DNA from: Candidatus Omnitrophota bacterium
Lineage (GTDB): Bacteria > Omnitrophota > Gorgyraeia > 2-01-FULL-45-10
Reading direction: 5' to 3'
DNA: 36,179 nucleotides
NCBI GenBank assembly: GCA_003142795.1
Contig: PLNN01000025.1
Span: forward strand, 1-36,179
Shown: piece after piece, positions 26,659 to 36,179 of the stretch
Numbering within the stretch: position 1 is the first letter of the stretch
Layout: every line of letters begins with the position of its first letter
Position numbers and translations under genes: made by a program
Notes under the pieces: model-generated
The model's database searches: none
The model's input: the letters and a program-made list of their open reading frames with translations, nothing else
What the model was told of the DNA's origin: nothing

Positions 26659-27036
26659 GTGGATAAAAAAGTGACAAGAATAGCACTTGTTGTATTGGCA
26701 TTGTGCTTTATATTTACAACGATCTCTTATTCAGCCGAAAGCCAGACTGCAGGGCAGAAAGTAAAGGGATTCTGGCAGAAGCTTTTTAATTATCCGGCTA
26801 ATGTTACGCAGGAATCCGCAGCAGTAGTAGCGGACACAGCCAAGGGAGGCGTCGGAGTAGTTACAAAAGAAGTCAAGACGCTGGGGCAGGTCACTTCAGG
26901 CGATGTTGAAAAGACAAAAGATCTGGTAATAGAACCGGTCACCGGCACAGCCGATGTTACGGTGAAGGCAGTGCAGGCGACAGCCGCAGTCCCGGCTAAT
27001 GCCGCGAAAGAAGAAACGCCGAAGGCTAATCAATAA
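26659..27036 (+). CDS. Secreted helical protein of unknown function (GTG start)
   Basis: The 125-residue product has a signal peptide (about 1-26, cleaved near SYSAES) and a long helix-forming mature region rich in Ala, Val, Lys and Glu, with KVKGFWQKLFNYPANVTQES and repeated V-K-T-type turns. No domain is recognised; the FWQKLFNYP part is loosely similar to surface proteins near exosortase genes. GTG 26659 is used because GGAGGA lies five bases upstream; an overlapping ATG at 26657 would give only five residues. A rho-independent terminator follows at 27064-27090. Confidence 0.7.
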   Translation: MDKKVTRIALVVLALCFIFTTISYSAESQTAGQKVKGFWQKLFNYPANVTQESAAVVADTAKGGVGVVTKEVKTLGQVTSGDVEKTKDLVIEPVTGTADVTVKAVQATAAVPANAAKEETPKANQ

Positions 27037-27063
27037 GGCGAAGGCACGCTAAAAGGGGAAAGC

Positions 27064-27090
27064 CATATTTTTAAAGAGATATGGTTTTTT
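27064..27090 (+). terminator. Rho-independent terminator after the secreted helical protein
   Basis: CCATAT (27064-27069) pairs with ATATGG (27079-27084) and is followed by six Ts. The stem is short but the loop is compact and the T-run is good. Confidence 0.75.
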
Positions 27091-27097
27091 CTGCAAT

Positions 27098-27103
27098 TAT
27101 AAT
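27098..27103 (+). promoter_or_regulatory. TATAAT -10 box close to the M23 peptidase start
   Basis: TATAAT lies eight bases before the ATG at 27112 and follows directly after the terminator T-run. No good -35 box is seen at the right spacing. If used, the message would start within a few bases of the ATG, and no Shine-Dalgarno is visible. Confidence 0.5.
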
Positions 27104-27111
27104 CCATCTAT

Positions 27112-27627
27112 ATGAAAAAGATATTTTTATTTCTCGCAACGGCGTTATTGGCATCTTCTGCCACCGTTATATTATATGAACCGGCCTCTATCGCGATATA
27201 TAAGATCACCGAACCGTATTTCAGCCTTCCGATAAAGTCCGGCTCCGGCGGTATTATTATAAGAAATGATCTGTACGGGGAGGGCGATTTCGGCGCTAAG
27301 CGCCACGGGCGCTCCCATTCAGGGATCGACATAGAAGCGGCTGTCGGCACGCCGGTATATGCCTCGAAAAGCGGCTTAGCATTTTGCGGAAATGTTCCCA
27401 CGGGATATGGCATATATGTTATGATATATCACCCCGATGGCATGCAGTCCTTTTACGGCCATCTGTCTGCATCATGCATTTCTTCGGCGCGAAAAGTACG
27501 CCGGGGCGACATTATAGGATTTGTCGGGAAAACCGGCAATGCGGCAGCTAAGGATATGGCGCCGCACCTGCATTTCGAGATACGCAAAGACGGGGAACCG
27601 CAGGATCCCCGGGATCTTATGAAATAA
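27112..27627 (+). CDS. M23-family peptidoglycan endopeptidase, intact active site
   Basis: The 171-residue protein has a signal peptide or anchor (about 1-20) and an M23/LytM domain with all zinc ligands: H69-x3-D73 in SHSGIDI, the YGHL histidine, and H152-L-H154 in PHLHFEI. It should cut peptide cross-links in peptidoglycan. This is the active counterpart to the degenerate LytM lipoprotein at 2583. The start has a -10 box only eight bases upstream and no Shine-Dalgarno. Confidence 0.93.
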   Translation: MKKIFLFLATALLASSATVILYEPASIAIYKITEPYFSLPIKSGSGGIIIRNDLYGEGDFGAKRHGRSHSGIDIEAAVGTPVYASKSGLAFCGNVPTGYGIYVMIYHPDGMQSFYGHLSASCISSARKVRRGDIIGFVGKTGNAAAKDMAPHLHFEIRKDGEPQDPRDLMK

Positions 27628-27642
27628 AGGAGAATGCCTACT

Positions 27643-27780
27643 ATGAGGAGCGTGGCCCTGGCGATAATAATGATCGGTCTGTTTCTCGGATTGGCCGGTT
27701 GCGGAGAAACGGTATCGGGCGTAGGAAAAGACGTTAACAGGATGGGCAGGGGCGTAAGTACTTTCTTTTTCAGACAGTAA
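27643..27780 (+). CDS. Entericidin-like small lipoprotein
   Basis: A 45-residue product has a hydrophobic core, a lipobox-like LAGC and a mature part CGETVSGVGKDVNRMGRGV, which matches the entericidin (EcnA/EcnB) pattern of tiny envelope lipoproteins. The ATG at 27643 is preferred over the in-frame ATG at 27634 because the AAGGAG is nine bases upstream of it. It sits between the M23 peptidase and the STAS-PilZ gene, with 15 bases before the peptidase stop and 12 after its own. Confidence 0.75.
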   Translation: MRSVALAIIMIGLFLGLAGCGETVSGVGKDVNRMGRGVSTFFFRQ

Positions 27781-27792
27781 TAAGGATAATAG

Positions 27793-28506
27793 ATGGCGAT
27801 CAGGATAAGAGACGTCAAGGACATACATATATTGGACATGGATGGAAAGATAGATATCAATTCTTCGGATATCATCGAAACAGTCGGGTGGCTGGTCAAT
27901 ACCGGGAAGATAAATCTTATATTCAATCTTGAAAATGTCGATATGGTCGATTATAACGGCTTGTCGATACTCGCCATAGCCTACAAGAATATAGTCAATC
28001 ATAAAGGAAAGCTGCGTTTCCTGAACGTGCCGCTTTCGGTCGTAGAGCTCTTTAAAGTCGTAAAACTGGAAAATGCATTCGAGGTCTATTCTGACGAGGA
28101 GACTGCCATTGACAGTTTCTATAACGAAGCCATCTCTGATCTTCATTTAAGAAGGAAATTCGCCCGTCTCGACATCCATCTTGTAGTGAAATACAAGCTC
28201 GCAGCCGCCCAAAAGAAAGCGAAAACCTTCGAAGGCCGCGTACTGAACATCAGCGCGGCAGGCTTGTATATATATACGGTAAACACCCTTCCTATGAACA
28301 CGCCCCTCGATCTTGAATTTAACCTGCCCAATTCATCTTCCGGGCTCGAAGCAAGCGGCAGAGTAAGCTGGGTGGCCGATAAAGAGATACAACCGCACGC
28401 ATATCCCGGAATGGGAGTATCGTTCGTTCATCTGACTACGGAAAAAGAGCAAGCGATAATAGATTTTATTGAGAAGAACATAACTCACCGCGCAGACCCC
28501 TTATGA
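27793..28506 (+). CDS. STAS domain fused to PilZ domain
   Basis: Residues 1 to about 110 form a STAS domain like anti-sigma-factor antagonists, and residues about 117-237 form a PilZ domain. In the STAS part, the usual phosphorylation site (D-S-S-G) reads D53-Y-N-G56, so the switch serine is missing. In the PilZ part, R120-R125 (RRKFAR) and NISAAG are complete. The pairing suggests that cyclic-di-GMP binding may control a STAS-type protein interaction. It follows an entericidin-like gene and precedes a radical SAM gene. Confidence 0.88.
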   Translation: MAIRIRDVKDIHILDMDGKIDINSSDIIETVGWLVNTGKINLIFNLENVDMVDYNGLSILAIAYKNIVNHKGKLRFLNVPLSVVELFKVVKLENAFEVYSDEETAIDSFYNEAISDLHLRRKFARLDIHLVVKYKLAAAQKKAKTFEGRVLNISAAGLYIYTVNTLPMNTPLDLEFNLPNSSSGLEASGRVSWVADKEIQPHAYPGMGVSFVHLTTEKEQAIIDFIEKNITHRADPL

Positions 28507-28537
28507 CCTGTTTATTCAAAACCCGCACACAAATCCA

Positions 28538-29497
28538 GTGGCTAAAAAAAATAATAAGCTAGATCTGATAAAAAAAGCTAACGCCATATTGAAAGACGCC
28601 CTAAAAGGGTGTTCTATCTGTCCGCGCAAATGCCGCGTAGACAGGACCGGCGGTAAGACCGGCTATTGCAGAGCGCCGATCAATCCCGTGGTGTACAGCT
28701 ATGCGCCGCATCATGGCGAAGAACCGCCGTTATCAGGGACAAAAGGTTCCGGCACAATTTTCTTTTCGCATTGCAATATGAAATGCGCCTATTGCCAGAA
28801 TTATTACTTCAGCCAGCTCGACAAAGGCGAGGATGTGAGCGTAGAAACTCTCGCCAAAATGATGCTTTATCTGCAAAAGGTCGGCTGCCACAATATAAAC
28901 CTAGTAAGTCCCACACACTTTGTTCCTCAGATACTGCTGGCGCTTGAGGACGCAATCGGACAAGGTCTGGACATGCCGATCGCGTATAATACGAGCGGGT
29001 ACGATTTGCCCGAAACGATAAAATTATTAAAAGGAATAGTCGATATCTATATGCCCGACATGAGATATTCAGATGATAGAATGGCAAAACGATATTCTGA
29101 TGCGCCCGATTACGTGGAATATAACACTGCCGCCATAAAAGAGATGTGGGGGCAGGTCGGCGATCTTGCTCTTGACGCTAACGGCATAGCGTTGCGGGGG
29201 ACCATTATACGATTGCTGGCGATGCCTGAAGGCATATCGGGCACTGAAAAGAGCTTAAGGTTTATTAAAGATAATATTTCCAAATCGGCATATTTAAGCA
29301 TCATGAGCCAATATTATCCGACCTTCAAAGCTTATAATTATAAAGAGCTCTCACGGTCCATATTGCCGGATGAATATAAGAATATCATTGACGTGGCCCG
29401 GGAATTAGGGTTAAATAATGGGTGGATACAGGAAGAGCCGAGCGGCGCTGACCCGAAATTCCTGGGAACCAACATTCCCCCTAAAACGAAAATTTAA
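28538..29497 (+). CDS. Radical SAM protein of the PflX/COG1313 type
   Basis: The 319-residue enzyme has an N-terminal four-cysteine zone (CSICPRKC and later GYC) and the radical-SAM motif C-x3-C-x2-C in HCNMKCAYC. PHHGEEPPLSGTKGSGTIFF and later blocks match the uncharacterised PflX-like family, which is related to pyruvate-formate-lyase activating enzymes. The reaction is unknown. The GTG at 28538 has no Shine-Dalgarno, but it is the first possible start in a frame closed by an upstream stop. Confidence 0.87.
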   Translation: MAKKNNKLDLIKKANAILKDALKGCSICPRKCRVDRTGGKTGYCRAPINPVVYSYAPHHGEEPPLSGTKGSGTIFFSHCNMKCAYCQNYYFSQLDKGEDVSVETLAKMMLYLQKVGCHNINLVSPTHFVPQILLALEDAIGQGLDMPIAYNTSGYDLPETIKLLKGIVDIYMPDMRYSDDRMAKRYSDAPDYVEYNTAAIKEMWGQVGDLALDANGIALRGTIIRLLAMPEGISGTEKSLRFIKDNISKSAYLSIMSQYYPTFKAYNYKELSRSILPDEYKNIIDVARELGLNNGWIQEEPSGADPKFLGTNIPPKTKI

Positions 29498-29500
29498 TTT

Positions 29501-30217
29501 ATGACGAAAAAAAACAGAAAATCCATAACGCATGCCAAGCAATTGGAGGCCATAACAAAAGTAAGCCAAACCATAACCTCCGACTTGTATCTGGAGGACA
29601 TCCTTAAGCTGATCGTGACCGTCACGGCCGAGACTATGGATTCCAAGATATGCTCTCTCATGCTTATAGACGATAAGACGAAGGAGCTTGTGCTCAAGGC
29701 CACCCAATCTATCAGCGAGGGGTATAATAAAAAACCAAATTTCAAAATAGGGGAAGGCATTGCAGGAAGGGCCGCTCTTGAAAATAAGCCTAAGGCTGTC
29801 TATGACCTGACAAAAGAATCCGAATACAAATCCAAAGACATAGCCGCTAAGGAAGGACTAAAATCGTTACTTTCCGTGCCGCTTGCGGTCAAGGGCAAAG
29901 TTATCGGCGTATTGAATAATTACACTTCATATCCGCATAAATTCACAAAAACAGAAATTGATGTTATGACGACTGTTGCGAACCAGGCAGCCATAGTTAT
30001 CGAGAATGCCGCGCTCATGGTCAAGACAAAGGGCATACAGGAAGAGCTGGAAACGAGAAAAACTGTCGAGAGGGCGAAGGGTATTTTGATGCGCGAACAA
30101 GCCCTCTCCGAAGAAGACGCTTTTCGCAAGATACAGAAGCAGAGCATGGACCTGAGAAAATCGATGAGGGAGATCGCGGAGGCAATAATACTGATCGAAA
30201 AAATGGGGAAAAAGTAG
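29501..30217 (+). CDS. GAF-ANTAR RNA-binding antitermination regulator
   Basis: The 238-residue protein has an N-terminal GAF sensor (about 10-170, with KIGEGIAGRAALENKP and LLSVPLAVKGKVIGVLNNY) and a C-terminal ANTAR domain (about 183-235) with ERAKGILMREQALSEEDAFRKIQ, as in AmiR/NasR/EutV. ANTAR dimers bind paired RNA hairpins with six-base loops and prevent termination. The next genes have leaders with such hairpins and terminators. There is no receiver domain and no kinase nearby, so the GAF domain likely senses a small molecule. It starts three bases after the radical SAM stop and has no clear Shine-Dalgarno. Confidence 0.94.
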   Translation: MTKKNRKSITHAKQLEAITKVSQTITSDLYLEDILKLIVTVTAETMDSKICSLMLIDDKTKELVLKATQSISEGYNKKPNFKIGEGIAGRAALENKPKAVYDLTKESEYKSKDIAAKEGLKSLLSVPLAVKGKVIGVLNNYTSYPHKFTKTEIDVMTTVANQAAIVIENAALMVKTKGIQEELETRKTVERAKGILMREQALSEEDAFRKIQKQSMDLRKSMREIAEAIILIEKMGKK

Positions 30218-30218
30218 C

Positions 30219-30246
30219 TTGACAAAACCCGTCAATATGGTATACT
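30219..30246 (+). promoter_or_regulatory. Promoter for nadE and its leader
   Basis: TTGACA (30219-30224) and TATACT (30241-30246) have a 16-base spacer. The -35 box starts one base after the ANTAR gene stop. The predicted start (about 30252) coincides with the first base of hairpin P1. Confidence 0.82.
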
Positions 30247-30251
30247 TAATA

Positions 30252-30311
30252 TGTTAAAGATGACAAGAGGACTCAGGCGTCCAAATCCAAAGTGAGGATT
30301 GGGCGCTTTTT
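30252..30311 (+). ncRNA. nadE leader: two hexaloop hairpins and a terminator (candidate ANTAR target)
   Basis: P1 is TGTT/GACA around loop AAAGAT (30252-30265), P2 is GGAC/GTCC around loop TCAGGC (30269-30282), with a three-base linker. The terminator pairs 30277-30288 (one bulged A) with 30296-30306, loop AAAGTGA, followed by TTTTT (30307-30311). P2's 3-prime arm (30279-30282) is part of the terminator's 5-prime arm, so the two folds exclude each other. Both loops have G at position 4; only P1 has A at position 1. Confidence 0.8.
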
Positions 30312-30328
30312 CGTTTTAAGGTGACTTT

Positions 30329-32005
30329 ATGAAGAAAAATATACGTTTAGCGATAGCTCAGATCAATTGCACGGTAGGCGATCTCGAAGGAAATTGCCGG
30401 AAAATGCACGAATATCTACATAGGGCTAAAGGCATGGGGGCGGATATAGTATCATTCCCAGAGCTCGCTGTAACCGGTTATCCGCCCGAGGACCTGTTGC
30501 TGAAAACCGGGTTCGTTGACGCTAACCTGGACGCCCTTAAAAAATTGGCAAAGTCCGTGAATGACATCGTTGCCGTAGTTGGATTTGTTAATAAAAAAGG
30601 AAAAGACATCTATAATGCGGGCTCCGTAATATACAAAGGCGAAATAAAGGGAATATATCATAAAATATTCTTGCCAAACTATGGTGTTTTTGATGAAAAA
30701 CGGTATTTTAAAGCCGGGACCGAAGAGCAGGTGTTTAAGATAGGCGATATTATTTTTGGGGTAACAGTGTGCGAAGACATATGGCATAAAGACGGGCCCG
30801 TTGCGAGACAGGCATCCATGGGAGCGAAACTTATCATAAATATCAATTCCTCGCCTTATTATGCAGGCAGGATACGCGAACGCGAAGAAGTCGTCCGTGA
30901 TCAGGCAAAGGCAAACGGCGTGGTAATCTCTTATGTCAACCTGGTAGGCGGACAGGACGAGCTCATCTTTGACGGGCAGAGCATGATAGCCGATAGCAGC
31001 GGAAAAATAATCGGAAGGGCAGAGCCTTTCAAAGAAGACCTTTTCTTTATGGATGTCGATATCCCCACAGGAGAAACGGAGACATTGAAAAAAGCGGTTG
31101 CTGTCAGCGACGAATTCAGCTCTAAAGCAAAGATGGCGCTGCTGCGGCGCGATGCAAAGCCGCTCGAAAAAGTCGCTGAGATATACAATGCGCTCGTCCT
31201 GGGTTTAAAAGACTATGTAACAAAGAACGGTTTCTCAAAAGTCGTCATAGGGCTTTCCGGAGGGGTCGATTCCGCGCTTGTTGCGGCGCTGGCGTCCGAC
31301 GCTCTCGGCAAAGAGAATGTCATGGGTGTGTTCATGCCAACGCGTTATTCGTCAGCCCGGTCAGAGGCGGATGCCAGGTTAACGGCGTCGAACCTTGGAA
31401 TAAAGTTCATAGTGATCCCCATGGACCCCTTATTTAAGTTATATCTCATGGCGCTTGAATCTCATTTTTCGGGGCTTGGCAGGGACACCACAGAAGAGAA
31501 CCTGCAGGCGCGCATACGGGGGAATATGCTCATGGCGTTATCGAATAAGTTTAACTGGATGGTCCTCGCGACCGGCAATAAGTCGGAGATGAGCACGGGC
31601 TACGCCACATTGTACGGCGATATGGCAGGAGGTTTTGCCGCAATAAAGGATGTTTTTAAGACCCTGGTCTACAAATTAGCCAAATATAGGAATTCACTGG
31701 GAATGGTTATACCTGAATCGGTGATCACGAAAGAGCCGACAGCGGAGCTTAAGCCGGACCAGAAAGACAGCGATACTCTTCCACCCTATAGCCTGCTCGA
31801 TGAGATACTGAAGGCATATATAGAGAAAGATAAAACCCTTGATGAGATAATAGAGGATGGCTTTGATAGCCAGACCGTTAAAAAAGTGGTCGATATGGTC
31901 GATAAGAGCGAATACAAAAGGAGACAGGCGCCTCCGGGTATCAAGATCACGCCCAAGGCGTTCGGTAAAGACAGGAGAATGCCGATAATCAATAAGTACA
32001 AATAG
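30329..32005 (+). CDS. nadE: Glutamine-dependent NAD+ synthetase
   Basis: The 558-residue enzyme has an N-terminal glutaminase (nitrilase-fold) domain with the catalytic triad E45, K112 and C148 (FPELAVTGYPPED, YHKIFLPNYGVFDE, VTVCEDIW). Its C-terminal synthetase has the ATP loop SGGVDS at 310-315, plus ATGNKSE and KEPTAELKPDQ. It makes NAD+ from deamido-NAD, ATP and glutamine, so it consumes glutamine nitrogen. AAGGTGA precedes the ATG. Its leader carries a candidate ANTAR-controlled terminator, which ties it to the upstream GAF-ANTAR gene. Confidence 0.97.
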   Translation: MKKNIRLAIAQINCTVGDLEGNCRKMHEYLHRAKGMGADIVSFPELAVTGYPPEDLLLKTGFVDANLDALKKLAKSVNDIVAVVGFVNKKGKDIYNAGSVIYKGEIKGIYHKIFLPNYGVFDEKRYFKAGTEEQVFKIGDIIFGVTVCEDIWHKDGPVARQASMGAKLIININSSPYYAGRIREREEVVRDQAKANGVVISYVNLVGGQDELIFDGQSMIADSSGKIIGRAEPFKEDLFFMDVDIPTGETETLKKAVAVSDEFSSKAKMALLRRDAKPLEKVAEIYNALVLGLKDYVTKNGFSKVVIGLSGGVDSALVAALASDALGKENVMGVFMPTRYSSARSEADARLTASNLGIKFIVIPMDPLFKLYLMALESHFSGLGRDTTEENLQARIRGNMLMALSNKFNWMVLATGNKSEMSTGYATLYGDMAGGFAAIKDVFKTLVYKLAKYRNSLGMVIPESVITKEPTAELKPDQKDSDTLPPYSLLDEILKAYIEKDKTLDEIIEDGFDSQTVKKVVDMVDKSEYKRRQAPPGIKITPKAFGKDRRMPIINKYK

Positions 32006-32009
32006 TATC

Positions 32010-32090
32010 CCGTTTCACTGACGAAACGGTAATACAAGGACATTGTCGCCCTTTATGCACTAAGGATAGTGTGTAAGGGGCTTTTGTTTT
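32010..32090 (+). ncRNA. Intercistronic leader of the sigma-like gene: P1 hairpin and hexaloop terminator
   Basis: P1 pairs CCGTTTC (32010-32016) perfectly with GAAACGG (32023-32029) around loop ACTGAC. A 14-pair stem (32048-32061 with 32068-32081, including G-T pairs) has loop AAGGAT and is followed by TTTTGTTTT (32082-32090), a terminator. Both loops have A at position 1 and G at position 4, as expected for ANTAR targets. A smaller hairpin (ACAA/TTGT, 32034-32046) lies between them. The first stem begins four bases after the nadE stop. Confidence 0.8.
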
Positions 32091-32124
32091 AAGCAAAATA
32101 TGGACCGAGAGGCAGGTGATATCA

Positions 32125-32664
32125 ATGAAGCTAAATTTCGAAGAGATGGTGGACAGGCTTTCCCCGACGCTTAAAAGGATAACCTATAAGCTTAACGGCC
32201 ATTTCACGTACTTTGATGATGACGATCTGTTCCAGGAAGCGCTGGAACATTTATGGCTTGCTTTTCGGAACGGATCCCTCAGCGATAAGACCGACAGCTA
32301 TGTACTGCAGGGGTGTTATTTTCACCTTAAAAATCATATCCGGAAGATGATGGATCGGGCAAAATTGATGAGCTTGAACGCTATCATGGATGAGGACGAT
32401 ACGAAGCTCGAGGATTTTTTGGCTGTCAAGGATACGCATTTTGACGAAGCGGTTGAAAAGTCTTTTATCGAGGAATCGCCAGCGATAAATTCGCTTTCAG
32501 CGCGCGAAAAAGAAGTAATTAACCTGTCGCTAAAAGGCATGACCGTCCGGGAGATGGGCAAACAGATGGGTATCTCACATGTCATGGTAGTAAAGATAAA
32601 GAAATCCATTAAAGACAAATGCAAAGAACTGAGAGGAGGGAAAAGGACGGGTTACCAAAACTGA
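32125..32664 (+). CDS. Sigma-70-family RNA polymerase sigma factor-like protein
   Basis: The 179-residue protein has a region 2-like core (DDDDLFQEALEHLWLAF and a DRAKLMSLN segment) and a region 4-like helix-turn-helix (LSAREKEVINLSLKG, VREMGKQMGISHVMVVKIKKSIK). It looks like a short ECF/SigF-type sigma factor; no anti-sigma gene is adjacent. ATG 32125 is used, with AGGTGAT just upstream; the in-frame GTG at 32116 would lie inside that sequence. It is the second gene downstream of the ANTAR regulator and carries a terminator-bearing leader of its own. Confidence 0.82.
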   Translation: MKLNFEEMVDRLSPTLKRITYKLNGHFTYFDDDDLFQEALEHLWLAFRNGSLSDKTDSYVLQGCYFHLKNHIRKMMDRAKLMSLNAIMDEDDTKLEDFLAVKDTHFDEAVEKSFIEESPAINSLSAREKEVINLSLKGMTVREMGKQMGISHVMVVKIKKSIKDKCKELRGGKRTGYQN

Positions 32665-32693
32665 CCTGTTTTTACTTGTAACAATGAAGGCAA

Positions 32694-32709
32694 TACACAT
32701 AGCAGTGTA
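32694..32709 (+). ncRNA. Hexaloop hairpin upstream of the permease terminator
   Basis: TACAC/GTGTA pair around loop ATAGCA, with A at position 1 and G at position 4. It stands 12 bases before terminator 1 of the permease leader and does not overlap it. A partner hairpin was not found in the upstream part. Confidence 0.6.
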
Positions 32710-32721
32710 AATACGACAAAG

Positions 32722-32751
32722 GCGTTCTTAAATTTTAAGAACGCTATTTTT
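32722..32751 (+). terminator. Terminator 1 in the permease leader
   Basis: GCGTTCTTA (32722-32730) pairs with TAAGAACGC (32736-32744), AT-rich at the tip, followed by TATTTTT. This perfect inverted repeat could end the sigma-like gene or be part of the control of the permease. Confidence 0.85.
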
Positions 32752-32758
32752 ATTAAAT

Positions 32759-32813
32759 GACATAGGTGTCCTGTTGATCCGCAGATGGATCTACGAGGCA
32801 CCTTAATTTTTTT
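32759..32813 (+). ncRNA. Permease leader: second hairpin pair and terminator 2
   Basis: A three-pair GAC/GTC hairpin with loop ATAGGT (32759-32770; a four-pair tetraloop form is also possible) is followed by GATCC/GGATC with loop GCAGAT (32776-32791). Terminator 2 pairs AGGTGTC (32764-32770) with GGCACCT (32797-32803), encloses the second hairpin, and is followed by TTTTTTT at 32807-32813. The first hairpin and the terminator compete for 32764-32770. Both loops have G at position 4. Confidence 0.7.
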
Positions 32814-32854
32814 ATAGCAGATGGTTATTCAACTGAAAATAGGAGGGTCTGAAT

Positions 32855-34729
32855 ATGTATGATAAAGGAATAGAGATAACTCCGGTAAAGCCCAAACTTG
32901 GGCTATTAGGCGCAACCATGAATGCTATGGCGCTGATAGCGCCGGGAGCTTTCTTGTGGATCACCTATCAATTACAGGCTGCGGCAACGGCGCCGAACGG
33001 CACGTCTGTAGCAAACGATATGTGGGCGGGTATAGTGGTAGCGCTGATCGTAGCATTCCTTACAGCGCTTTCATATGCCCAGCTTGCGAAGATATATCCT
33101 GAGGCCGGATTCGCGAGCTGCTGCTATTTCGCGGAGAGGGCTTTCCTGGATAAGGAAGGCGAGAATAAGAGATTTACTACACCGTATTCATTAGCCCGCG
33201 TCGCAAAGCTTGTTACGGGGTGGGCTGCTCACCTCTTCTATTGGGTATATCCTGGGATCATGGTCGCTTTCATGGCCACAATGATAGGTTACATCTATAC
33301 ACAGTTTACAGGGCATACGCTAACTATCGCAAACCTGATTGTTATAGGAGCAGTCTTTGCGATCGTAACGGGTTACGTTGCTTTTCGCGGGATAACAGGT
33401 TCAACGGTTACATCTATCTGGATCAATATAATCCAGCTTGTCACGTTAGTCATATTTAGCGGCCTGGCTATCGGCTACCGCATTCTAAATCCACAGCATG
33501 CCTCCCAATGGTCTTTTGGCGGAGCTTGGGATGTGGTAAAACCGCATAGTTTCCAAGGCGTCCTGGTCCAGTCAACACTGGCTATCCTTATATTAGTAGG
33601 CTTTGAAAGTTGCACCGCACTGTCTGCTGAGACTAAGGACCCCGAGAGAACTATACCAAAGGCGATCATATTGTCTCTTATCATTCAGGGAATATTTGCT
33701 TATCTATTGGAGTATTTTGCTGCGGGTTTTATGATCAGTGATAAATTGGTTGGCACAGCTTCCGGAGCGCAAGTCTTTGGAATAGCGGCTGCGGCAGCGT
33801 CAAGCGCACCGATAGGAGACCTCACGAAACTTATCGGAGATAGCATGCTCGGAGGTATCGGGTTCGGCCTGATGATCACCATGGCAATCACGGTAGCTAT
33901 AGCTATAATAGGTACGACCTTAAGTTGTATGAACACAGCCGTGCGGGTAACCTGCGGCATGGCAGAGCATAGGGAACTACCCAGCTTCTTAAGTTTTATG
34001 CATGGTGAATTTGTGACGCCTCATATGGCAATTGTAGTGTTAGTGATAGTCTCCTCTATAATAGCGGCCGTAGGAGTACAGTCGGTCGTAGGCCTTACGG
34101 GCATAACACTTGCCTCAAACCTGGGGACATTTGTGCTTTATGGGCTCACTTGTTTTTGGACAATAGTTGCATTTAAAAGAAGGGCAGATTTCAATATTTT
34201 AAAGCATGGGATCATCCCAGCTTTAGGCATCATAACCAACGTGGTCATGACAGCAGCGATAATATACCTATATATCATCGGCAACGCCGATGCGAAGGCG
34301 GAAGCGAAGATATGTTTTATCATTGCAGGCGCGTGGGCCCTCATAAGCCTTGCCTATATAGGTATAACCACATTCAGGAAGACCAACTCTCTCAAGATGG
34401 TCTCAGCCATGATACGACCTGAAGCGCTCGACATATTGGTCGAGATACTTAAGGACGAAGAGATGATAGAGGGCATGACAGTAACGAAGGTAAAGGGATT
34501 TGGCAAACAAAGAGGCCGGACAGACGACGGTTCGCCGACAAACAGGATCTCTTTTGTGCCGAAAGTAAGAGTCGATGTGGTTGTCAGGGAGTGGGATGTG
34601 CCTCATATCATGGCTGTCATAAGAGACGCTACGAATACCGGACAGGTAGGCGACGGAAAGATATTTGTTCTTAATGCAACAGAGGCTATGCGCGTCCGGA
34701 CAGGAGAAAAAGGCATCAACGCCGTATAG
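32855..34729 (+). CDS. APC-family amino-acid permease fused to a PII domain
   Basis: Residues 1 to about 510 form an APC-superfamily transporter with about 12 membrane segments (GATMNAMALIAPGAFLWITYQLQ near the start; AETKDPERTIPKAI after segment 6, a typical amino-acid/polyamine antiporter motif). Residues 513-624 form a full-length GlnB-like PII domain (KGFGKQRG, FVPKVRVDVVV, TGQVGDGKIFV, MRVRTGEKG). Its T-loop is one residue shorter than in GlnB and has Arg where the uridylylated Tyr51 should be, so it probably responds to nucleotides and 2-oxoglutarate without uridylylation. Fusion could gate transport by nitrogen or energy status. AGGAGGG precedes the ATG. Confidence 0.9.
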   Translation: MYDKGIEITPVKPKLGLLGATMNAMALIAPGAFLWITYQLQAAATAPNGTSVANDMWAGIVVALIVAFLTALSYAQLAKIYPEAGFASCCYFAERAFLDKEGENKRFTTPYSLARVAKLVTGWAAHLFYWVYPGIMVAFMATMIGYIYTQFTGHTLTIANLIVIGAVFAIVTGYVAFRGITGSTVTSIWINIIQLVTLVIFSGLAIGYRILNPQHASQWSFGGAWDVVKPHSFQGVLVQSTLAILILVGFESCTALSAETKDPERTIPKAIILSLIIQGIFAYLLEYFAAGFMISDKLVGTASGAQVFGIAAAAASSAPIGDLTKLIGDSMLGGIGFGLMITMAITVAIAIIGTTLSCMNTAVRVTCGMAEHRELPSFLSFMHGEFVTPHMAIVVLVIVSSIIAAVGVQSVVGLTGITLASNLGTFVLYGLTCFWTIVAFKRRADFNILKHGIIPALGIITNVVMTAAIIYLYIIGNADAKAEAKICFIIAGAWALISLAYIGITTFRKTNSLKMVSAMIRPEALDILVEILKDEEMIEGMTVTKVKGFGKQRGRTDDGSPTNRISFVPKVRVDVVVREWDVPHIMAVIRDATNTGQVGDGKIFVLNATEAMRVRTGEKGINAV

Positions 34730-34765
34730 AGCAATAGACAAAGATTTTTAACGGAGGATATTAAT

Positions 34766-35104
34766 ATGAAAAAAATAGAAGCGATAATTCGCCCGTCTAA
34801 AGTAGGCGATGTGTGTGACGCCTTGGAAAAGGTCGGCCATCCCGGAGTAATGATCACCGAGATCGAAGGTCATGGAAAACAGAAGGGCATAGAGACGCAG
34901 ATACGCGGCAAAACGTACAAAGTGGAATTGATGACCAAAGCACGGATAGAGATCGTGGTAAAGGATGGTGACGCAGAAACAATAGTTAAAGCTATCCGCG
35001 AAGCCGCTTTTACCGGTCAGGTAGGAGATGGGAAGATATTTATCTCGCCGGTAGCCGACGCTGTCCGGATACGCACCGCCGAACGGGGCGATGTCGCAGT
35101 ATAA
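34766..35104 (+). CDS. Free PII nitrogen-regulatory protein
   Basis: This 112-residue protein is a canonical GlnB/GlnK-type PII. Q39, Tyr51 in RGKTY, K58 and the C-terminal RIRTAERG match the positions that bind ATP/ADP and 2-oxoglutarate, and the T-loop tyrosine is present for possible uridylylation. It follows the permease-PII gene after 36 bases with a GGAGGA sequence, so it is likely co-expressed and could form mixed trimers or compete with the fused domain. The glnK/glnB choice cannot be made without context, so no symbol is given. Confidence 0.95.
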   Translation: MKKIEAIIRPSKVGDVCDALEKVGHPGVMITEIEGHGKQKGIETQIRGKTYKVELMTKARIEIVVKDGDAETIVKAIREAAFTGQVGDGKIFISPVADAVRIRTAERGDVAV

Positions 35105-35137
35105 AAAGTATTGTCAAAAACGAGAGGAGAGTATAAA

Positions 35138-36179
35138 ATGCGTAAAAAAGAAACAGAGGGGGTATATATGAAGATACTAAGATTCATTGTTATTGTATGC
35201 TGTGCGCTCGCGGTAACGTTCAGTAACGCATCATTGCGCGCTGACGAAAATACACCAGCGGCTACTACTCCGTCGGCGACTCAACCGCCGCGTGCTCCAT
35301 TGATGAACGTTTTGGACAAGGTAGGACTGGCTAAGCCTTTAGATAAGATGGGGATCAATATATATGGTTATGCCGAAGGCGGCTGGTTTTATGATGCCAC
35401 CTCGCCTCGTAAAGGATCAGGCCCGACCTTTATCGGGTATAACAATTTCAAAAGCGACGTTACCCTTGACAAGGTTGACCTGAGTATTGAGCGTACGGTC
35501 GATGCCACAAAGAAGCAGTTCGATGTTGGCTTCCACATGGAAGGCATCTATGGCGCGGATGCCGCGTTTATACATTCAAATGGACTATGGGATACGCAAG
35601 TAGGCCATGATCAATGGGATCTTATTCAAGCCTATGCCGACATAGCTTTTCCTTATATACCGGTACGGCTGCGGGTGGGCAAATGGATCGAGTTGGCCGG
35701 CTTCGAGCAATTTAGCGCCAACATATACGGAGCTTTTGGCGATCCCATGAGAGCGCTCTATACGTATAGTTATCAATTCCTCTATGCCGAGCCCGGCACG
35801 CAGACCGGCGCTTTTGCCACTTATGTATTGAACCCTCAATGGACATTTGATGGCGGCTTTACGATGGGGTGGAACCAATCGCTGCGGGACGCCAACAGTG
35901 CTATCGATTTTTTAGGGCGTGCAACCTTTACGCCCAGCGATAAAACCACTGTGATTTTTGTAATGACTGAAGGTCCTGAATTTCCATTTAGCTTTGGACA
36001 CAATATACCGCCAGGTGACCATAAAGACTATTGGACTGCCTTGGACCTGGTCGTTACGCAGAAGATCAATGACAAATTGAGTCTTGGTTTGGGCGCTGAC
36101 TATGTTATAGCTCCGGCAATACCGGGTCTAACGACCAAGCCTAAGGCATGGGGAGGCGTGGCCGGCTACGCCAGCTATG
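35138..36179 (+). CDS. OmpL-like (BBP2-type) outer-membrane porin, partial
   Basis: The frame runs off the window end. It starts with a signal peptide, a Pro/Thr/Ala-rich linker, then KPLDKMGINIYGYAEGGWFYD and a series of alternating strands with LSIERTVD-like, HMEGIYGADAAFIHSNGLWDTQ and many aromatic ends. This fits the putative beta-barrel porin-2 (BBP2/OmpL-like) family. Similar porins sit beside PII/ammonium or permease genes in other PVC bacteria, by my recollection. Two in-frame starts have Shine-Dalgarno sequences: 35138 (GAGGAG) and 35168 (GAGGGGG, giving MKILRF). A TATAAA at 35132 leaves the choice open. Confidence 0.82.
   Translation, partial: MRKKETEGVYMKILRFIVIVCCALAVTFSNASLRADENTPAATTPSATQPPRAPLMNVLDKVGLAKPLDKMGINIYGYAEGGWFYDATSPRKGSGPTFIGYNNFKSDVTLDKVDLSIERTVDATKKQFDVGFHMEGIYGADAAFIHSNGLWDTQVGHDQWDLIQAYADIAFPYIPVRLRVGKWIELAGFEQFSANIYGAFGDPMRALYTYSYQFLYAEPGTQTGAFATYVLNPQWTFDGGFTMGWNQSLRDANSAIDFLGRATFTPSDKTTVIFVMTEGPEFPFSFGHNIPPGDHKDYWTALDLVVTQKINDKLSLGLGADYVIAPAIPGLTTKPKAWGGVAGYASY

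Follow-up and report, generated by a model that had tools for sequence, protein, structure and literature searches.

A PII domain fused to an APC-type permease among nitrogen genes of Omnitrophota and other phyla

Control of transporters by PII has been reviewed for Amt, NrtABCD, UrtABCDE and SbtA only, and the use of PII is seemingly restricted to transporters able to be trimers (PMC10710835). In the AmtB-GlnK and cyanobacterial Amt1-PII systems, PII is directly coupled to a nitrogen transporter within one nitrogen regulon. In the SbtA-SbtB pair, a non-Amt transporter, a bicarbonate carrier, is locked by a PII-type regulator that is PII-like rather than a canonical PII. Within the APC superfamily, the transporter KimA carries at its C terminus a cytoplasmic domain that senses a ligand (c-di-AMP in structures 8b70 and 8b71), and the prokaryotic CAT/LAT-type permeases GkApcT, MjApcT, BasC, AdiC and BcaP have no regulatory domain.

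The gene described here, from an Omnitrophota bacterium, lies in a window of 36,179 nt, that is, the whole stretch of DNA that was analysed. Its product is an APC permease fused to PII. AmtB and GlnK are two proteins coupled by T-loop plugging; the fusion is one polypeptide, belongs to another transporter superfamily and lacks the PII residues Arg47 and Tyr51. SbtA and SbtB are likewise separate proteins. KimA is a dimer that moves K+ and carries a different sensing domain, the domain of the fusion being PII. The CAT/LAT-type permeases have the same permease fold and a distant sequence similarity, but the fusion differs from them in TM1 and TM5 as well as in its added domain. Known control of transporters works via separate PII proteins, and a covalent APC-PII fusion, which departs from that, would bring the amino-acid permease superfamily under PII control. 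We found no published APC-PII fusion in the open-access literature, and PII is unmentioned in the Omnitrophota survey paper.

The fused protein and its junction

The reading frame is unbroken from ATG to stop, contains no internal stop codon, and is preceded by an AGGAGGG ribosome site at 32841-32847. The gene and its domains are listed below.

32855-34729 (+): APC-PII fusion gene, 624 aa; coordinates include the stop codon
32855-34390 (+): APC permease domain, residues 1-512 (Pfam PF13520/PF00324, AF2 secondary structure, Foldseek)
34391-34729 (+): PII domain of GlnB/GlnK type, residues 513-624 (PF00543, AF2, Foldseek, constant spacing)
34496-34558 (+): T-loop region between PII beta-2 and beta-3 (approximate), without Arg47 and Tyr51

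Both domains score above the curated Pfam cut-offs, AA_permease_2 and AA_permease over residues 32-483 (E values of 5e-16 and 3e-15) and P-II over residues 514-618 (1.5e-19). The AF2 model of the PII domain alone (pLDDT 86) matches solved PII/GlnK chains with a TM score of about 0.83 in Foldseek, and the full-length model, built on 28 sequences, is of moderate confidence only (pLDDT 75, pTM 0.75). The initial annotation, which placed a complete 112-residue PII domain at the C terminus of an APC permease, is thus confirmed by both Pfam and AF2. A frame break or assembly error, which it had named as a concern, is excluded, and so is a chance joining or chimeric assembly, as genomes from several phyla, assembled independently of one another, contain this fusion with the same 33-residue junction.

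For the permease, no NCBIfam profile of a named transporter family is matched over its curated cut-off; matches to BcaP, CAT and urea-carboxylase permease all fall far below. The best solved relatives are xCT, CAT1, CAT4, MjApcT and GkApcT by profile, and SLC7A10, AdiC, BasC, y+LAT1, GkApcT and ApcT by fold (Foldseek; TMt of 0.72-0.79 to SLC7A10, AdiC, BasC and ApcT). The domain thus shows both the profile and the inverted-repeat fold of the APC superfamily. The substrate is most likely an amino acid or amine. The proton-coupling TM5 lysine of ApcT and GkApcT is absent, an invariant glutamine (Gln194) occupying the aligned place, and the TM1 motif is A-P-G instead of G-x-G; coupling and substrate may consequently be unusual.

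In the full-length AF2 model, the last helix (residues 478-511) is followed by PII strand beta-1 at residues 513-520, so that TM12 and PII are joined by at most two linker residues. In 28/28 sequences, two of which are copies of one contig, 33 residues separate AG[GA]W, a TM12 motif, from RP[ED], a PII motif. The T-loop tip ranks with the least conserved stretches of the fusion, in sequence and in length, and a spacing that stays constant while T-loop length varies points to mechanical coupling. Within the PII fold, which is ferredoxin-like, beta-1 runs parallel to beta-2, and beta-2 ends in the T-loop. This topology would place the membrane anchor away from the T-loop, at the other end of the sheet.

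Residues of the PII domain were numbered on, and aligned to, E. coli GlnB. Arg47 and Tyr51 are lost from every fused copy; the two are class features, Tyr51 of the uridylylated classes and Arg47 of the Amt type, and membership of the PII family does not require them. Relative to E. coli GlnB, the T-loop of the 624-residue protein lacks Tyr51 and is one residue shorter, as initially reported. The conclusion drawn from this, a permanent gate independent of uridylylation, does not follow from the loss of Tyr51. No match to GlnD was found in the genome carrying the fusion (92% complete), in a search that detects GlnD in E. coli, Caulobacter and Corynebacterium. Moreover, in the Amt-linked GlnKs of the fusion-carrying genomes, this one included, Arg47 is retained but Glu replaces Tyr51. 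The uridylylation argument therefore carries little weight.

Distribution and origin

A protein search of relatives recovered 27 distinct fused sequences from four phyla. The fusion thus recurs in other phyla, and is rare, as the initial annotation supposed. Among Omnitrophota, a full-length fused gene is present in 14/384 genomes, with a contig-end fragment in two more. In the phylum of genome G384, 8/45 genomes carry the fusion, G416 having two copies and G384 more than one. It is found in 2/295 genomes of the phylum of G388 and in a single genome (G657) of about 300 in the phylum of G385 and G386; three further matches, in G702, G722 and G733 of the latter phylum, lie outside this count. 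In that phylum, the permease occurs without PII in G385, G386, G554, G582 and G654. A plasmid search returned no relatives. A contig filed as Methanothrix (L008/L093) features a 91% identical fusion and is probably a misbinned piece of Omnitrophota.

In a tree built from PII domains, all 27 that come from fusions fall into one clade (SH-aLRT 97). Their permease domains likewise form one clade in the permease tree (100/98), outside of which fall the unfused permeases L089, L011 and L086-L088; the L011 protein, which is split over two frames, was merged for tree placement only. A fused PII clade and a fused permease clade with the unfused proteins outside indicate that the fusion arose once. The two unfused permeases nearest the fusion terminate close to the fusion point; PII was thus added once to a pre-existing permease. 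The fused gene has since moved among phyla, whether by inheritance or by transfer. Two unfused close relatives of the permease (L009 and L011) are followed by PP2C phosphatase-like and Ser/Thr kinase-like genes, recognised by eye in the translations.

Neighbouring genes and expression control

Two genes follow the fusion in the window.

34766-35104 (+): separate PII gene whose 112-aa product has Arg47, Tyr51 and Lys58 (Pfam); 36 bp downstream of the fusion
35111-36179 (+): gene for a BBP2 beta-barrel porin, truncated where the contig ends (PF07642, E value of 6.5e-28)

A BBP2 porin beside the fusion recurs across loci. The neighbourhoods include amt-glnK pairs, a second PII, porins, genes for glutamine synthetase I or III, and gltB and carAB, the last two identified by the starts of their sequences; most neighbourhoods contain amt, PII, glutamine synthetase, gltB or carAB. 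For instance, the gene order in L068 is amt-PII-amt-PII-fusion-porin-PII-glutamine synthetase-gltB. Four PII matches occur in the 1.94-Mb genome of the fusion described here, namely, the fusion, its neighbour and two GlnKs adjoining amt on contig C48.

Further PII-related sequences, and one cation ATPase, were noted near some copies. PII-like proteins in which the T-loop is mostly deleted lie between the fusion and the porin in L066 (6878-7198, minus strand) and L067 (about 6387, plus strand), and a degenerate PII-like frame lies between amt-glnK and the fusion in L010 (5246-5560, plus strand). Near the fusion in G069, a P-type cation ATPase carries an N-terminal PTS EIIA-2 domain (L066, 1413-4667, minus strand).

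Upstream of the fusion, the following elements were identified.

29501-30217 (+): GAF-ANTAR regulator (PF03861, E value of 1.1e-20), the sole ANTAR protein found in the genome
32116-32664 (+): ECF-like sigma factor; its matches to sigma-70 region 4 are weak and narrowly miss the cut-off
32650-32680 (+): promoter-like element GGTTACC-N16-TACTTGTA, with four genome copies, all before nitrogen genes
32694-32709 (+): hexaloop hairpin P1 (UACAC-AUAGCA-GUGUA), of ANTAR type (A1, G4; definition per PMC8934654)
32715-32726 (+): hexaloop hairpin P2 (GAC-AAAGGC-GUU), whose 3' side doubles as the 5' arm of terminator 1
32721-32751 (+): intrinsic terminator 1
32759-32770 (+): another hexaloop of P2 type (GAC-AUAGGU-GUC), which overlaps terminator 2
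32764-32813 (+): intrinsic terminator 2, 42 nt upstream of the ATG

The GGTTACC-N16-TACTTGTA element occurs at only four places in the 1.94-Mb genome, before the fusion, two amt genes and GSIII, and a control pattern occurs at none; the other three sites are on contig C48 at positions 298, 2352 and 4130. In relatives, the element precedes amt, glutamine synthetase, porin, GAF-ANTAR and hybrid-cluster protein genes, as read from the protein starts. It may be the promoter of the ECF-like sigma factor, which (as cluster c4) is present in 10 loci and in Omnitrophota is often found upstream of the fusion.

In the EutV layout, a dual hexaloop is arranged such that the second one overlaps a terminator (PMC8934654). 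The Omnitrophota leaders resemble it in their two hexaloops, with position 1 being A or G and position 4 being G, in the overlap with a terminator and, in the window, in a GAF-ANTAR gene that ends 2.6 kb upstream. Position 1 is A in both P1 and P2 before the 624-residue fusion, where two terminators stand in tandem. A strict dual-hexaloop test identified 21/26 leaders, compared with a mean of 0.1 in shuffles, and in 24/26 an intrinsic terminator has a 5' arm that overlaps the second hairpin. An Rfam scan of 27000-36179 returned no family, only three weak, chance-level matches. The Omnitrophota leaders differ from the EutV system in that they govern a nitrogen regulon and in that ANTAR binding is putative. 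Judged from these sequence patterns, the regulon is apparently run by the one GAF-ANTAR protein via dual-hexaloop leaders.

In other lineages, sigma-54 promoters lie 15-77 bp ahead of the fused gene. Promoters of the form TGGCAC-N5-TTGCT scoring 10 or 11 of 11 were found 15-95 bp upstream in the f53 family, the phylum of G384 and unfused relatives, and RpoN is present in G066, G412, G416 and G384. No sigma-54 promoter was detected in the window (best score, 5 of 11), and RpoN has no match in the genome of the fusion, nor in G005 and G018. Hence, ANTAR antitermination probably switches on the fusion in its own genome, and sigma-54 does so in other lineages. Two unrelated controls of nitrogen type on one gene family support a nitrogen role, and the tie to nitrogen status suggested initially is borne out by the neighbours together with the leader or sigma-54 promoter. 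A by-product of this analysis is a nitrogen regulon comprising four leader sites and a single ANTAR protein, in a genome without an RpoN match.

How the fused PII domain may act

A rigid fusion that recurs across phyla, has a single origin and lies amid nitrogen-uptake genes is probably a self-regulating transporter, turned on or off by the nitrogen or energy status that it senses. We give about even chances to its being an APC transporter of the nitrogen regulon that is allosterically gated by the fused PII through TM12. The PII domains would trimerise and gather three permease units, and binding of ATP or ADP (and of 2-oxoglutarate where Gln39 is kept) would alter the PII core. The change would travel via the continuous TM12/beta-1 joint and favour or block transport of an amino acid or amine, such that uptake would run when nitrogen is short and stop when it is plentiful. 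The neighbouring free PII may add a second layer, through mixed trimers or T-loop docking. Only tentatively do we hold to the wider picture, in which PII acts via its N terminus and core and not via the T-loop, three LeuT-fold permeases sit on one PII trimer and are gated by adenylates, together with 2-oxoglutarate in the forms that retain Gln39, and the gene, fused once, has spread across at least four phyla. To our knowledge, the APC transporters of solved structure are monomers, dimers or heterodimers and none is trimeric, which counts against a trimer model. A fusion that joins the two parts rigidly and dispenses with the T-loop would put PII to a new use, and ligand binding in a one-chain system would be readable directly as transport.

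Three other modes of action are conceivable. In one, taken up from the gate suggested in the initial annotation, the fused PII would insert its T-loop into the permease in the manner of GlnK and AmtB; PII and SbtB do bind Amt and SbtA directly (PMC10710835), and the fusion has a T-loop region. However, the tip varies in sequence and length, and by fold topology the chain enters PII at beta-1, opposite the T-loop and tied to TM12 without slack. Arg47, the T-loop residue known to plug Amt pores, is lost throughout the fused copies. Plugging by the fused PII is thus unsupported and quite unlikely. The same rigid joint would aim the T-loop away from the membrane, where it would be free for partners if the protein were a transceptor whose permease reports an outside substrate and whose PII signals to other targets; the tip is unconserved, unlike a partner site, and we regard this role as very improbable. 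Rather doubtful, too, is that the fused PII serves as a docking platform on which the free neighbour PII, with Arg47 and Tyr51 intact, gates by mixed trimer or plugging. A free PII gene is found directly or almost directly 3' of the fusion in most Omnitrophota copies, and in the tree these PIIs group with other permease-neighbour PIIs in a clade of their own, apart from Amt-linked GlnK. In contrast, L079, L080, L083 and L084 of the G384 phylum have no adjacent free PII, yet keep the fusion.

The substrate could instead be a cation (K+ or ammonium-like), with PII tying cation uptake to nitrogen or energy status. The replacement of the TM5 lysine by glutamine would fit, as would the genes adjoining several copies: KimA-like transporters in L064, L067, L076 and L083 (E values of 1e-59 to 1e-65 against the KimA structure), kdpA in L070 and L072, and KdpD/KdpE-like genes in L072, L082, L083 and L085. 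Against this, the permease profiles point to the amino-acid carriers BcaP, CAT and xCT, the window has no K+ gene beside the fusion, and the leader of the fusion is common to amt and glutamine synthetase, all of which makes a cation unlikely.

Returning to allosteric gating through TM12, the ligand residues differ among the fused copies. The PII domain of the 624-residue protein keeps Thr29, Gly37, Gln39, Gly41, Lys58, Gly87, Lys90, Arg101 and Arg103. The ATP/ADP site (Gly37, Gly87, Lys90, Arg101 and Arg103) is kept in nearly all fused copies, L079 having Ser for Arg103. Gln39 and Lys58, the Mg-2-oxoglutarate residues, are kept in Omnitrophota forms. Gln39 is retained in most fused members, but Thr replaces it in L079 and in the G384-type subgroup, which probably respond to adenylates only; judging from this residue, 2-oxoglutarate sensing is not universal among the fusions.
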